DNA of 64,000 nt from Candidatus Altimarinota bacterium (lineage in GTDB: Bacteria > Patescibacteriota > Gracilibacteria > BD1-5 > UBA2023): assembly GCA_014377305.1 (NCBI GenBank), contig JACMPW010000005.1:62001-126000 (forward strand), written 5' to 3'. Numbering within the stretch: the first letter of the stretch is position 1; every line of letters begins with the position of its first letter. Below are positions 3,509 through 12,540 of this stretch, in pieces. The notes under the pieces were generated by a model that had not been told where the DNA came from, did no database searches, and worked only from the letters and a program-made list of their open reading frames with translations. A program made the position numbers and the translations under genes.

Positions 3509-3841
3509 ATGAAATCTCCTCTCAAAATAGGACTCAACCTCCTCACTCTCAGTCTCATATCACTGGGACTATACAATGCCAATAAAGCAGAAGCGATCAA
3601 CACGATCAATGATGGATGGCGGATGGAATCCGCATGGGAGATAGACACACTCGAGTGATGTGTAGCAGTGACAAATCAGTCATGAATCCGATATATCCCT
3701 ACTCGTACCTGGGCTGAGTGGAACCAGTTCAAATCTATCGCCGCATCACAATGAATGAATCTCACCGCTTGCCCTCCTGTCATGCCAGTTTGGTCTGGAG
3801 ATGGAGATGGTGGTGGAGGTGGTGATGGAGCAAGTCTCTAA
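3509..3841 (+). CDS. Small secreted protein, Gly/Asp-rich C-terminus (paralogue of 4951-5304)
   Basis: 110 residues with three in-frame TGA glycines. The N-terminus MKSPLKIGLNLLTLSLISLG followed by NANKAEA is a signal peptide with an AxA-type cleavage site. The mature part contains a TRTWAEWNQFK segment and ends in a Gly/Asp-rich tail. Its first ~37 residues and the TRTW-EW motif recur in the gene at 4951, so the two are tandem paralogues separated by the 325-residue gene. No known domain was recognised. The close spacing to the next gene (19 bp) suggests co-transcription. Confidence 0.75.
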
Positions 3842-4950: not shown

Positions 4951-5304
4951 ATGAAATCTCCTCTCAAAATAGGACTCAATCTCCTGACTCTCGGACTCAT
5001 ATGACTCGGAGTATACAACGCAAACAAAGCAGAGGCTATCAACAATATCACTGATGGTTACCAAGTAACGGGATCATATGATCTTATGAGTCTTGATGGA
5101 TGTACTACGGCTGTCAATCCGAGTACAAGCGTATTTTTACCGACTCGAACATGGGAAGAGTGGAACTCAGTAAAAGCAGTAGCTCCATCACGATGAATTA
5201 GTCTGATGTCTTGTACTACGTATATGAACACAATTGGTGGTGGTTTTACTGGTGGAGATGCTTGTGGCGATGCTAGTGCTGGCGATGATTGTGGTGATTT
5301 TTAG
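4951..5304 (+). CDS. Small secreted protein (paralogue of 3509-3841)
   Basis: 117 residues starting MKSPLKIGLNLLTLGLIGLG. It shares the signal peptide and the TRTW-EW motif with the gene at 3509 and ends in an alternating Gly/Asp/Cys tail (GGDACGDASAGDDCGDF). Three Cys in the tail and one in the middle could form disulfides outside the membrane, which fits the thiol-redox genes 1.5 kb downstream (inference). The stop is TAG 5302-5304. Confidence 0.75.
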
Positions 5305-6452: not shown

Positions 6453-6911
6453 ATGACGTACAAATATATCTATCCGAGTATAGCAATAGTACTATCTATA
6501 CTATTCGGTATTGTCATAGCACTCTCTATACCGACTATACGATATACTCAGTATGTCGAGCCTACTCGAGTAGAGGTATCTCCTACTCAGGCGAGAGCTG
6601 AGATGATGAAGAGTGGTACCGGGAACTATCTTTTTTTTGATGTACGATCACTCAAGGAGTACAATGAGCTCCATGCAGAGAACTCTACGAGCGTCCCTAT
6701 CGCAGATCTCTACAATCTCTGGAGATCTGATCTCCCACGTACCTCAGACAAGCAGATATATCTCATCTGTACGAGTGGACGACTTGCTGCAGTCGCATAT
6801 GACTTCCTAGAACATCATGGATATCGCAACATCCGTCATATCGAGTGAGGTATATCGAACTGGATATCTGAGAATCAACCAGTGATTGCCAAAAAAATCT
6901 TTGATAACTAA
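6453..6911 (+). CDS. Membrane-anchored rhodanese-domain protein
   Basis: 152 residues. A transmembrane helix (residues 8-30) is followed by a single rhodanese-like domain. The motif FFDVRSLKEY is followed by the active-site loop CTSGRLA (Cys at about residue 109), then HHGYRNIRHIEGG, whose penultimate Gly is TGA 6846. Rhodanese domains carry sulfane sulfur or act in thiol chemistry; here it would face the exterior. It is the first of four close genes (rhodanese, DsbA-like, HTTM, DCC) that look like a thiol-redox operon. Confidence 0.85.
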
Positions 6912-6920
6912 TATGAGACT

Positions 6921-7706
6921 ATGGTATGAGTGAGATCGAAAAAAACATTGCATCATGACTACTCATCTAGGCATATATGGATATATGCTATATATGGCAT
7001 ATGAGCTCTACTGAGTATATTCGCAATATATACTATAGTGACTATTATCTGGCCATCAGGATCTAGTGAGAGCCATGTAGCCACAGAAAAACATATCGAG
7101 TATATGCGACCACTCGTATCGGATGACAAGTATAGATGGAGGAGCTCTAGCAAGTATACTCTCGTGATATATGAGAGTCTTGACTGCAAGTATTGTCGCA
7201 AGCTCAATGCGGAAATACATAAAAATATATCATATCTGAGATGAAAATTCAACCTCGTATATCGCAATGCTCCTCTCGTAGATCTCGAGCCTCTTGCAGA
7301 AGAGAAATCTCTCATTACTGAGTGTGTCTATCGAGATGCTTGAGGAGATAAGATGTTTGATTTTATCGATAGAGTCTATGGTGACTATCAGATATTCCAT
7401 CGAGATAATATATGGGTCAAAAATATCGCCAAAAAAATCATGTCTACTCCTCAGTCCCTCGAAAACTGTATGAGTGATCCAGTACAAAAATCTAAAATAG
7501 CGAATGATATCAAGAGTCTTGCTATCGATGGAATCAGTTCAACACCGAGTATTGGTATATTTTATTGAGATAAGCTCGTAGGTCGCTATGCGAGTGGATT
7601 CAATGGTACTATGCGAGTGATCCAGTACCTTGCTAAATTTGAGGACAATGCTGATCAGTTCTGGAGCGATGAGCTCTTTGAGAAGATCCAGAAATGAAAA
7701 ATTTAA
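6921..7706 (+). CDS. Membrane-anchored DsbA/thioredoxin-4-like thiol oxidoreductase
   Basis: 261 residues. ATG 6921 is in frame with the domain (the earlier ATG 6913 is not). An N-terminal transmembrane helix (about residues 21-47) is followed by a thioredoxin fold with active site CKYC (VIYESLDCKYCRKL). A Thr-Pro cis-proline loop (ISSTPSIGIFYG) ends with TGA 7566 as glycine. This layout is that of DsbA/BdbD-type disulfide catalysts outside the membrane. Candidate electron acceptors in the window are the VKOR protein (27220-27699) and the BdbC-like protein (52930-53310). Confidence 0.85.
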
Positions 7707-7724
7707 TTCAATATTACATCAGCT

Positions 7725-9200
7725 ATGTTATCAAATTTGTTGGAAAAATTATTTCGTATTTCTGAAATCAGGGATTCAAAAATTTTGCAGATAGTTGCTC
7801 TGTGTATTTTTTTTATTTTTATTATTAGTTTCAATCTTTGGATGAATAGTATCCCATGAGATATGATCTGTTCACCACATATTACTCATTGTGATTTTTA
7901 CAAATCTATTCTTATATTCGACGGATTTCCTGATAGTTATGATCAGAGTATATTCTATATCATACTTCTATGAGTGATTTTTTTATGACTCTATTCTCTC
8001 TATATCTGAGAATACGGTATTGTATGGTGATCACTTTTCCTCCTCTCTCTCTACAAGTGACTCTATATATATGTGTTTAGTGCGGGGAACTATGATTACT
8101 ATGATATTGTCCTTGTATTGATTTTTCTATTTGCACATAACAAGCTCTATTGGCTGAGGATATGATATGTTCTTCTTTATTTTCTTGCTGCAACTATCAA
8201 ATTCCATCCTGGATGGATATTGGGTACATATTTCTCTGCACTCCAGACAGGATTACCACTCTTTCCGGATATATCTATTCCTCTGTGGTCCAATATTGCT
8301 ATTATCACGCAGATTATACTCTGTTGGATGCTATTATTGAGGAAAAATACTACATTTTTTCTCCTTGCAGAAATATATTTCATGTCGTTTCACTTTTATT
8401 CAGGTATTCTCGTAGAGTATAGATATTTGCTCACCACTATACCATTTATGATAGTGCTATTTATCCTACCCAAAGATATACCATATAAACGATCCTATAA
8501 TATATTTTCTTATATTTTTATATTGCTCCTCTTCGTTGGTCAGTCTGTAGCTATCATGATTCCTGGGGATCAAAAATTGACACTAGAATGAAACAAATAT
8601 GGGCTCTATATGTTCGAGGCAAATCATCAATGTATTGCTACGTATTCTATCATAGATGCTACATGAGCTGTCACTACGACCTCTCGAACATCGAAGCTAG
8701 CACGTGATAGATGCGATCCATATGACGCACTCAAGAGATATCAGCCACTTTGTGGTAAAGATGGTATAGAACGTATAGCAATGACATTTGATCATTCGAT
8801 CAATGGTGAGCCATTCTACCGAATTGTTGATCAGAGAGATATCTGCAACCTACGCTATACAGCATTCGTGAGAAATAGTTGGATAAAATCTGAATATGAT
8901 AGTCCAGCGCTCATAGGATATCCAGTGAGGAATTTTTATGATGGACGTATCAAAACAGAGACAAATATGCCTATAGTTGATGGATCTCTGATACGTCTCC
9001 CGTGACTTGAGCATACTGATCGAGTCTCTATGAGTATTGTTCAGAAAATACTATTTCCATTTGTAGGAAATATCACCATATTGTATTGGACTATATGGAT
9101 AATAACACTCATCATAGTTCTCGCTCTCCATATCAAGAGAATAGTGTATCTCAACAAGACACATATCAAAAACAAGGATATTGATCTCTTATCTCAATAG
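7725..9200 (+). CDS. HTTM-like (vitamin-K-dependent carboxylase-like) multi-pass membrane protein
   Basis: 491 residues with about ten transmembrane helices in the N-terminal two thirds, a soluble extracytoplasmic segment (residues ~290-430) with several Cys, and a final helix. The region AATIKFHPGWILGTYFS followed by LPLFPD resembles HTTM/VKGC-type membrane proteins. The pairing with a DCC-family gene 5 bp downstream is a known neighbourhood for HTTM proteins. TGA glycines are frequent. The substrate is unknown; gamma-carboxylation is not implied. Confidence 0.65.
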
Positions 9201-9205
9201 TCTCT

Positions 9206-9496
9206 ATGAAAATCTATTTCGATAGTCATTGTCGGATATGTCGACGTATCGCAGTATTCTGTCAGGATCATGCGAGAGAACCGTTGGTATTCGTACCAAT
9301 TCGCGAGTCTATCTACGCAACATATGAACACGATACTATCGTAGTCTCTCTCGAGGGAGCTATCTATACATATGGAGCTGCACTCCGTATTATCTTCAGA
9401 TGTATGTCATATCCGTATCGATTTCTTGCATATGTACCAGTGGGTATACTCGATTTTCTCTATTATATATTGAGATATATGCGGAGGTATTTATAG
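9206..9496 (+). CDS. DCC-family (DUF393) thiol-disulfide oxidoreductase-like protein
   Basis: 96 residues with an N-terminal CxxC (YFDSHCRICRRIAVF), as in the DUF393/DCC family, then a short helical C-terminus. The family is usually ~110-130 residues, so this is a compact member. It follows the HTTM-like gene by 5 bp and ends inside the 3' end of the convergent gene 9491-11155 (6 bp overlap). It is probably a redox partner of the upstream HTTM and DsbA-like proteins (inference from context). Confidence 0.8.
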   Translation: MKIYFDSHCRICRRIAVFCQDHAREPLVFVPIRESIYATYEHDTIVVSLEGAIYTYGAALRIIFRCMSYPYRFLAYVPVGILDFLYYILRYMRRYL

Positions 9497-11155
9497 TTCT
9501 ATAGCCTTATAGAGCTCACAAGCATGTGTAGCTATATATATAGTACGTTTCCCGGTCGTATTTTTTTCTATCTGTACTCTATTTACGATCCTCTCAGAGA
9601 GCTGGATGGTGGCACAGACTCTCCCAGTCATGAGATCTAGCTCATAGAGACGACCATCATTGGAACCTATGAATAGCCTCTCTCCATCTATCAGGGGTGT
9701 TGCATATATACGACCACTCGTCTCATATTTCCATACTATCTCTCTACTATCGAGATCATAGGCATATACAATCTTATCGAGAGATCATGCGTAGATCACT
9801 CCTCATGATTGTACAGGGTTACTATAGAATCCGTATCTCGCCTCGAATCTATGATAGAGAGACCCATCGCTCATATGGAGTGCATAGAGTCCACCATCCA
9901 TACTTCCGAATATGACGAGATCCCTTGTATCATCGAATATAGCACTATATTTGACCTCTCCATTTGTCTTGTATTCCCAGAGTAGAGTACCATCTTTTGC
10001 ATCATAGGCTCGCATGGAGTGATCATTGCTTCCACACACTACTATATTATGTTTGCTACTGTATGCAGGGGAGGCATGGGTATATTCACGCATAGTATCA
10101 TAGTTTTTCCAGAGGGGTTTTCATGTTTTGATATCGATAGCGATGATTCCTCATTTTTTTCTCCAGAGACCGAACTCGAGTCAGATATAGATAACTCACT
10201 GCTTGTGATTGATGCACGGAGATGATCCTATCCAGTCGGCATCTATACATGTCCATATGACTCTGCCAGTATGCTTTTCTAGACAATAAAAAATACCATC
10301 ATACGCTCCAAAAAATACAAAGTCTTGATATATAGCAGGGCTCGATAGTATTATTTTGCCTGCAGCACCGAATAGAACCTTGAATGACCAGATAACAGTA
10401 CTAGTACTACTATCAATACATAAGAAGTTTCCATCATCAACTCACATATAGAGTCTATTTTTATCAATGAGTGGTGCAGATTTTGGGGCTACAATATATG
10501 GGTTTGCCTTACACAATATATTTGTTTTATATATATTATACTTATCCTCTCGAGGAGCATCTTTTTTAATCTGTTCTATATTTTTGAGGCCAAGTTCTTT
10601 AGTAAAGTCATCTAATTCAAATGTACTCCATATTTTTATAGATTTTTCGTGAAATTCTTTGTAGTATTCTCTATCTCGAAAACGAAGTGCAACAAATACT
10701 CCAGCTATCTCTATATTGTGTTTTTCTCGTAATATAATTCTCGATTTGTTGAAACTACTCCCACTATTGAGTAGGTCATCTACGAGGATGATTGGAATAT
10801 TCTTGATAATATCTCATTCTATGAGATTTGGGAGACTACTCTTTTTTCGAGATTTCCGTATGTAGAAAGAGTTACAAATAATCCCATCAGTATCTAGGAT
10901 TGCCAGTGCTCATACTATTGGTATAGCCGTTGATTCGAGTCCTCCGATTTGGATACGAGTATATCCAGCCTCCTTCATTGTCTTGAAAAACTCTATAGCA
11001 TAGTTTTCAAGAAATATTTTATTGACTACTTGTCACTTAAAATCCATTACCCACTTTATACTACGATCAGCTACCAGATTGTAATCGGATATAGTTTCAT
11101 TATAGACATTCTCTACTATGATTTTATGGAGTATATTTTGGGATGATGTTGTCAT
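9491..11155 (-). CDS. Type I phosphoribosyltransferase fused to a PQQ-like beta-propeller
   Basis: 554 residues. Residues ~1-190 form an orotate-PRTase-like domain: an early Lys/Asp-rich part, then the PRPP-binding motif IILVDDLLNSGSSF. Residues ~240-554 hold seven to eight PQQ/BamB-type repeats, each with a pattern like FGSxDGxxYALD-xTGxxxW (AYDGIFYCLEKHTGRVIW; SLDKIVYAYD). No signal peptide is seen, so it is probably cytoplasmic. TGA glycines include propeller positions. PRTase and PQQ repeats in one chain is uncommon; the two halves share one uninterrupted frame under code 25. The function is not predictable beyond PRPP-dependent or regulatory chemistry. Confidence 0.8.
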
Positions 11156-11178: not shown

Positions 11179-12540
11179 TTAATCCATACTGACTCGTCGC
11201 ATCTTCTCCTCGCTCATCGGCACATCTGATATGATGAAGTCGCGAGATGGATGGTAAAATGAGAGAGCATCTGTACCTACCTCAGCGATCACCGCATCGA
11301 GTACATTATCGAGAGGCATCTCGATCTGAGTTCCTCGATCCATATCCTTGAGTTGGCAGATTCACTTCTTCGCCTCCATGATACCGATGACGATGACAAA
11401 CCGAGCACCGACACGGTTTGCTTTTTTGAGTTGTACCTTGATCGATGGAGTACCGAGCCCGAGGAGTGAGTTGAGTCATTTTTTGCGAGCCTCGATATTG
11501 AGAGGGAGGGCGAGTTTCTTGGCCTCGTCACCGAGCTGCATGATGTAGAGGTGTATTTTGTCTTTGTTCTTCAGCTGTACTCCTCGTTCGATCATCGCCT
11601 CGATGAGACGCTCCGCACCAAATGCGAACCCAACGGCAGGAACCTCAGTCTTGTATCCGATACTCTTCGCGAGGCCATCGTAGCGACCTCCACCACCCAA
11701 TGCATCTTGTGTCCGACCTGATCCATCTACGAGCTCCCATACCGTATGTGAGTAGTAGTCGAGACCTCGTACGAGGGTATGATCCTCTTCATATTTGACT
11801 CCGAGGATATCGAGATATTCCTTCACCTTAGTGTAGAATTCGAGGGAGTCCTTTTTTAGGAAATCAGTCATCTTCGGTGCTACCTTGAGGAGTTCCTTCA
11901 CATCAGCATTTTTGGAATCCAATAGTCTGAGTGGATTTTTTTCGAGTCGAGCGAGATCGGTTTCATCGAGGAGATGTTTTTTGTTCTCGAAAAATGAAGC
12001 GAGCTCGATCAAATATTTCTCTCGTTCTTTCGCCACTCCAAGGGAGTTGATTTTGACCGTATACGTCCCTGCGAGCCCCAGACCATCGAGGATCTGAGCC
12101 ATAATATAGATTGCCTTAGCATCGAGGATCGGGTCGACCTCACCGATGATCTCGGCTCCGATCTGGTGGAACTGTCGATAGCGACCCTTTTGAGGTCTAT
12201 CATAGCGAAAATGTGGCTCGATATAGTAGAGGTATACTGGCTGTGGCTCCTCGAGCATGTGTTCGAGGTACGCACGCATCACTCCAGGAGTACTCTCAGG
12301 CTTCATCACGACTTCTCGCCCACCCTTATCAGTGAAGTCGAACATCTCCTTTGTCACGATATCTGATCCATCACCGGTGGAGTGTGTTATGAGTGACTTG
12401 AGCTCGAGGATCGGAGTCGTGATACGAGTGAATCCGTTGGTTCGGAATTCGTGACGAGCTACTTTTTTGAGAAAAGTGAAGTACCGTTGATATTCACCGA
12501 ATATATCTTGCATTCATCTGACTCGTGGAGGTATTTCCAT
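11179..12540 (-). CDS. hisS: Histidyl-tRNA synthetase
   Basis: 453 residues, a class II aaRS of usual length. The start at 12540 restores the family N-terminus PPRVRGMQDIF, with TGA 12514-12516 as the glycine. Motif 2 is seen as FRYDRPQKGRYRQFHQ and the HisA motif as LVRGLDYYSHTVWE. GGGGRYDGL and AVGFAFGAERL follow. The C-terminal anticodon-binding domain carries two more TGA glycines. It charges tRNA-His. The upstream palindrome at 12592-12619 separates it from the preceding reverse-strand gene. Confidence 0.95.

Follow-up and report, generated by a model that had tools for sequence, protein, structure and literature searches.

A phosphoribosyltransferase-propeller fusion of Patescibacteria and its probable place in radical-SAM peptide islands

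Introduction

The closest described relatives of the protein analyzed here are orotate phosphoribosyltransferases (PRTases; PyrE) and eight-bladed propellers of the BamB/PQQ type, and the closest described setting is that of the His-Xaa-Ser (Hxs) systems, whose named families in NCBIfam (HxsA to HxsD) include no PRTase or propeller member. A fusion of a PRTase to a propeller is undescribed in the literature and databases that we searched, in line with the initial annotation of this DNA, which knew of no characterized protein with this architecture. Likewise, we found no paper that places a PRTase in a radical-SAM peptide pathway. Both absences are weak evidence. The radical-SAM peptide products of Patescibacteria are unstudied, as far as our searches show. 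Here we describe a PRTase-propeller fusion encoded in a 64,000-nucleotide stretch of a Candidatus Altimarinota genome (the window), together with its relatives and their gene neighborhoods.

Results

The fusion gene occupies window positions 9491 to 11155 as a single, uninterrupted frame of 554 codons (554 amino acids) under genetic code 25. The initial annotation had read the same frame; it lies on the minus strand, which had been left unstated. Ten in-frame TGA codons occur in the gene. In standard-code homologues, 30 of the 57 residues aligned with these codons are Gly, compared with a background of 7% Gly (binomial P = 2.5e-19). The code 25 reading, in which TGA encodes Gly, is therefore right.

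The N-terminal half of the protein (residues about 1 to 205; 10541 to 11155) is an orotate PRTase-like domain. The match to the NCBIfam pyrE model was weak (3.3e-9), and a profile built from the PRTase domains of the family and searched against the PDB gave orotate PRTases as its best matches (2p1z, 5e-20; 5hkf, 5e-17). In the AF2 model, the acidic PRPP loop VDDLLNSGSS (residues 125 to 134; 10754 to 10783) is located between strand 122-129 and helix 133-146, and the type I class first assigned from this loop stands. Alignment of 11 fusion PRTase domains showed that V125, D126, D127, and N130 of the PRPP loop are invariant, as are R100, K101, K104, I112, E113, and G114 of the flexible catalytic loop RKSRKKSSLPNLIEG (residues 100 to 114; 10814 to 10858).

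The C-terminal half (residues 206 to 554; 9494 to 10540) is a PQQ/BamB-like propeller (PF13570, 4.6e-51; PF13360, 2e-30). The number of blades, originally given as seven or eight, is eight: the strand order in the AF2 model runs through the PRTase to about residue 205 and then through eight blades, the last of which is closed by strand 206-210, and the top Foldseek match was the eight-bladed Cake8 (target TM of 0.91), with BamB next at about 0.8. The model had a mean pLDDT of 83, and at a pTM of 0.63 the placement of the two halves relative to each other is uncertain. Conserved polar residues, about one per blade (S226, K267/S271, S311, H360, K402, Y444, and E521), form a ring; from blade to blade they recur at equivalent positions immediately ahead of the inner strand. 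Their positions in the model suggest a binding face where the channel opens, and the propeller could plausibly serve as a platform for interaction or sensing, as the initial annotation suggested. Inspection of the sequence revealed no lipobox and, as noted previously, no signal peptide, which argues that the protein should be cytoplasmic.

The fusion occurs in 13 genomes from 9 genera of Patescibacteria, with both code 25 and standard-code members among them. Twelve of the 353 genomes of the class carry it, and the thirteenth genome (G622, from a 380-genome sample of the phylum) belongs to another class. Among the 12, G144 has two copies, and the genes of G120 and G111, which are included in the count, are interrupted by a frameshift or the end of a contig. 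The fusion of the sister species G004 is full length and 77% identical to that of the window genome; across the eight other genera, identity between genera is mostly about 28 to 34%. The full-length copy in G004 and the recurrence in eight other genera exclude a frameshift or chimera as the source of the fusion, and the two halves are one protein, as first read. Its distribution over nine genera marks the fusion as an old architecture and not an accident of assembly. Loci L002 and L003 were rejected as relatives since they match in the propeller only (L002 encodes a TPR-PQQ protein), and matches in plasmid records were rejected because they cover the propeller half alone.

The genes surrounding the fusion were initially described as thiol-redox rather than nucleotide genes. 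This description is correct but incomplete, as these genes belong to the 3′ part of an Hxs-bearing island. Another 62 kb of contig precede the window, and the Hxs genes of the same genome are located there (C1:48.6-58.4 kb), about 20 kb upstream of the thiol-redox genes. They encode HxsD, an HxsD-like protein, HxsB, a precursor peptide, and three HxsC-like radical-SAM enzymes. HxsB scored above its curated cutoff (458 bits, 3e-137; cutoff, 370), HxsD slightly below (46 bits; cutoff, 50), and the HxsC-like proteins at 70 to 83 bits, under the HxsC cutoff of 268. The precursor (C1:50781-51206, equivalent to L020:8781-9206) matched HxsA3 at 2e-14 with 53 bits (cutoff, 65) and has the His-Xaa-Ser repeat, ending in (HGS)8.

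Beyond the Hxs genes, the island continues toward the fusion; its genes for which window positions follow are on the plus strand. A large secreted protein is followed by exported peptides, including two small paralogs, one with a Gly/Asp-rich tail (3509 to 3841) and one with a Gly/Asp/Cys-rich tail (4951 to 5304) and a homologue beside the fusion in G004. Next come a TPR-like protein, a membrane-anchored rhodanese (6453 to 6911; PF00581, 1.5e-13), a membrane-anchored DsbA/thioredoxin-4 protein (6921 to 7706; PF13462, 1.5e-10), a polytopic membrane protein (7725 to 9200), and a DCC1-like thiol-disulfide oxidoreductase (9206 to 9496; PF04134, 3e-5, just under the curated cutoff). The fusion gene is convergent with the last of these, tail to tail, and the gene immediately preceding the fusion, in the same orientation and across a 23-bp gap, is hisS (11179 to 12540, minus strand). 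In this genus, hisS marks the island boundary. In the sister species G001, which lacks the fusion, the Hxs cluster abuts hisS at the site taken by the fusion and island in the window genome, and the fusion therefore lies on the margin of that island. One end of the island, just outside the window, is a genuine His-Xaa-Ser system, and the fusion closes the other. A partnership of the fusion with hisS like that of HisZ and HisG was considered and rejected, because the HisRS is of ordinary length and the island of G001 abuts hisS without a fusion.

Radical-SAM enzymes are encoded beside the fusion or on the same island in 7 of the 9 genera, and leader-bearing exported peptides are encoded near it in most. 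The distance from the fusion to the nearest radical-SAM gene is within 2 kb in six genera and 12.8 kb in the window genome. The chance of such proximity was 3 to 11% per genome, and the product over the seven genomes tested was about 6e-10 under uniform placement, a figure that ignores the general clustering of genes and leaves out the fusion genomes that lack a radical-SAM neighbor of this kind, namely G004 and G020 (short or incomplete contigs), G316 to G318, and G622. Across the 353 genomes of the class, fusion and HxsB co-occur (Fisher P = 0.0026); within f1/f2, HxsB is so common that the association is weak.

The most complete gene run was observed in G041, where the fusion is accompanied by HxsD (57 bits; cutoff, 50), HxsB (489 bits, 1e-146; cutoff, 370), an HxsA3-like leader peptide, and SPASM and KedN5/PhpK-like radical-SAM enzymes. 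In G011, a radical-SAM gene is directly downstream of the fusion, HxsB is close, and a leader peptide contains HxS. The fusion contigs of G020, G111, and G120 carry peptides of the HxsA type, several of which contain HGS or HxS repeats; those of G111 and G120 also carry several radical-SAM enzymes, and the HxsB of G020 is on another contig. HxsB is missing from G140 and G144; next to their fusions are genes for other radical-SAM enzymes and for exported peptides rich in Cys and Asp. No radical-SAM gene was found beside the fusion in g183 (G316 to G318) or g349 (G622), apart from a gene of the MiaB type in G316, about 6 kb from the fusion, and G622 had no radical-SAM match anywhere at 1e-5.

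Several features of these peptides were noted in passing. Leaders in several genomes have the pattern G-F-x-x-(D)-E ahead of a hydrophobic stretch, similar to the site at which prepilins are cleaved, and the G041 island contains a weak match to A24 peptidases (L011:2671-3780). An exported Cys/Asp-rich peptide 2 kb from the fusion in G140 (L083:6020-6790) has a tail apparently interrupted by a Hint/intein-like domain (PF05203, 2e-10), with Cys at its start and HN at its end before a Cys.

In g183, the fusion is in a different operon, and the gene directly upstream of it, with a 63-amino-acid open reading frame between, encodes a relative of the window's membrane protein (38% identity in G316). 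The protein of the window, which within the class is shared with g183 alone and presumably resembles HTTM/carboxylase proteins, had no match in Pfam, and its predicted structure (pLDDT of 44) was too low in confidence for use.

The PRTase domains of the fusions formed one clade apart from the PyrE-like proteins of CPR bacteria (support, 1.0; UFBoot, 100). The fusion scored 36.8 bits against the curated pyrE cutoff of 106.8 and 19.5 bits against the gathering cutoff of 27 for PRTase-CE (PF24390). The hood motif SGxKSPxY of CPR orotate PRTases is degenerate in the fusions. An argument that a lost orotate-binding Arg excludes orotate was dropped, as CPR PyrE relatives also lack that Arg.

In IMG/VR, 16 loci (L107 to L122) encode stand-alone PRTases, whose matches to the fusion profile range from 1e-34 to 1e-40, compared with 1e-15 to 1e-20 for CPR PyrE. 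These proteins grouped with the fusion PRTases, apart from PyrE (UFBoot, 100), so the PRTase subfamily extends beyond the fusion and can act without a propeller. Examples are L112:3666-4289 and L116:4770-5417, and L114 has two tandem copies. The contigs resemble T4-like and other tailed phages in content and lack peptide genes; a search of cultured phage records at 1e-5 gave no match to the stand-alone PRTases.

Discussion

The recurrent position of the fusion indicates that it probably belongs to the peptide islands, although in the window genome it is about 21 kb from hxsB, on the opposite strand, and after hisS. Starting from the conserved architecture, the PRPP-side motifs, and this position, we infer a use of PRPP, a docking role, and an acceptor, and we tentatively propose a role for the fusion as an accessory protein that works in the cytoplasm for islands of radical-SAM/ribosomal-peptide maturation. 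The islands served would be of the His-Xaa-Ser type in the window lineage and of related types elsewhere. The conserved polar face of the propeller would be the docking site for the precursor peptide or for a partner enzyme, and the PRTase domain would bind PRPP and move the 5-phosphoribosyl group to an acceptor of the pathway. Candidate acceptors are a peptide side chain or a small base that becomes part of the product. That the PRTase chemistry acts on the peptide or one of its building blocks is itself doubtful, and the more specific scheme in which the propeller grips an Hxs-type precursor for PRPP-dependent tailoring and the PRTase phosphoribosylates it is unlikely. We know of no peptide modification by phosphoribosylation.

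The main alternative follows from the supply of PRPP. A full match to PRPP synthetase was found in none of six code 25 fusion genomes (the window genome, G004, G011, G020, G041, and G120), whereas G111 and all four standard-code genomes tested had one. Among groundwater Gracilibacteria, most reportedly cannot make PRPP themselves and depend on an outside supply (PMC11452946). The PRTase might then be a noncatalytic sensor of PRPP or nucleotides, as in the use of the PRTase fold by PurR, with the propeller as the output or partner-binding half, so that host-derived nucleotide supply would gate the maturation or export of the peptides. The degenerate hood motif agrees with such a sensor. The invariant Arg-Lys..Lys of the catalytic loop, together with the PRPP loop, goes beyond what a sensor needs, and the fusion has no DNA-binding or effector domain; on balance we regard a sensor as rather unlikely. 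Within the genus of the window genome, the fusion-less G001 to G003 have a divergent PRPP synthetase.

Nucleobase salvage, with the PRTase making a nucleotide from a scavenged base, the propeller as a mere scaffold, and the peptide genes as coincidental neighbors, is less probable still. Orotate PRTases are the best homologues, and in G622 (L099:5781-12893) the fusion comes after prs-pyrE-pyrF-pyrD and is followed by genes for a glycosyltransferase and an exported Gly/Ser-rich protein. However, both G622 and G316 have a separate PyrE, the fusion PRTases are a clade of their own, and outside the genus of G622 the genes adjacent to the fusion are radical-SAM or exported-peptide genes and not nucleotide genes. 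The least probable reading, in which the fusion and the membrane protein (7725 to 9200) are a membrane-associated module and the radical-SAM genes are mobile neighbors in the same island, draws on the occurrence of the membrane protein in 4 of the 353 class genomes, in two distant lineages and each time next to the fusion, but a search of the class found that protein in none of its remaining eight fusion genomes, G004 among them.

If the fusion does act in peptide maturation as an accessory protein, phosphoribosyl chemistry or PRPP sensing would enter radical-SAM peptide pathways. The fusion gives a function-by-neighborhood handle on a host-dependent lineage, and its PRTase subfamily, which phage-like contigs and ultrasmall bacteria have in common, stands apart from the PyrE relatives that these bacteria carry.

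Compared with known systems, the fusion shares with orotate PRTases (2p1z and 5hkf) the type I fold, the flexible loop with Arg-Lys..Lys and IEG, and the acidic PRPP loop; it differs from PyrE in its separate clade among the CPR proteins sampled, its degenerate SGxKSPxY motif, its VDDLxNSG loop, and the attached propeller. The stand-alone PRTases of phage-like contigs (PHROG 32468, "phosphoribosyl transferase," a weak match) have FQxxGxE, RKxRK, and VDDLxNS in common with it, but they have neither propeller nor peptide island. With BamB/PQQ-type propellers it shares eight blades and W-motif repeats. Unlike BamB, it is attached to an enzyme domain, has a polar ring conserved within its own family, and lacks a signal peptide and lipobox; it scored 89 bits against the BamB equivalog cutoff of 285 (TIGR03300) and 71 bits against 480 for PQQ-dependent dehydrogenases (TIGR03075). 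The islands of the window genome, G011, and G041 resemble Hxs systems (TIGR03976/03977/03978 and NF038309) in having HxsB, HxsD (just under its cutoff in the window genome), and HxsA-like precursors or leader peptides, and they differ from the named systems in HxsC-like proteins that score under the cutoff and in many further radical-SAM enzymes. Together, these comparisons describe an architecture that is apparently new in a setting of an already known kind, the Hxs-type radical-SAM peptide island.
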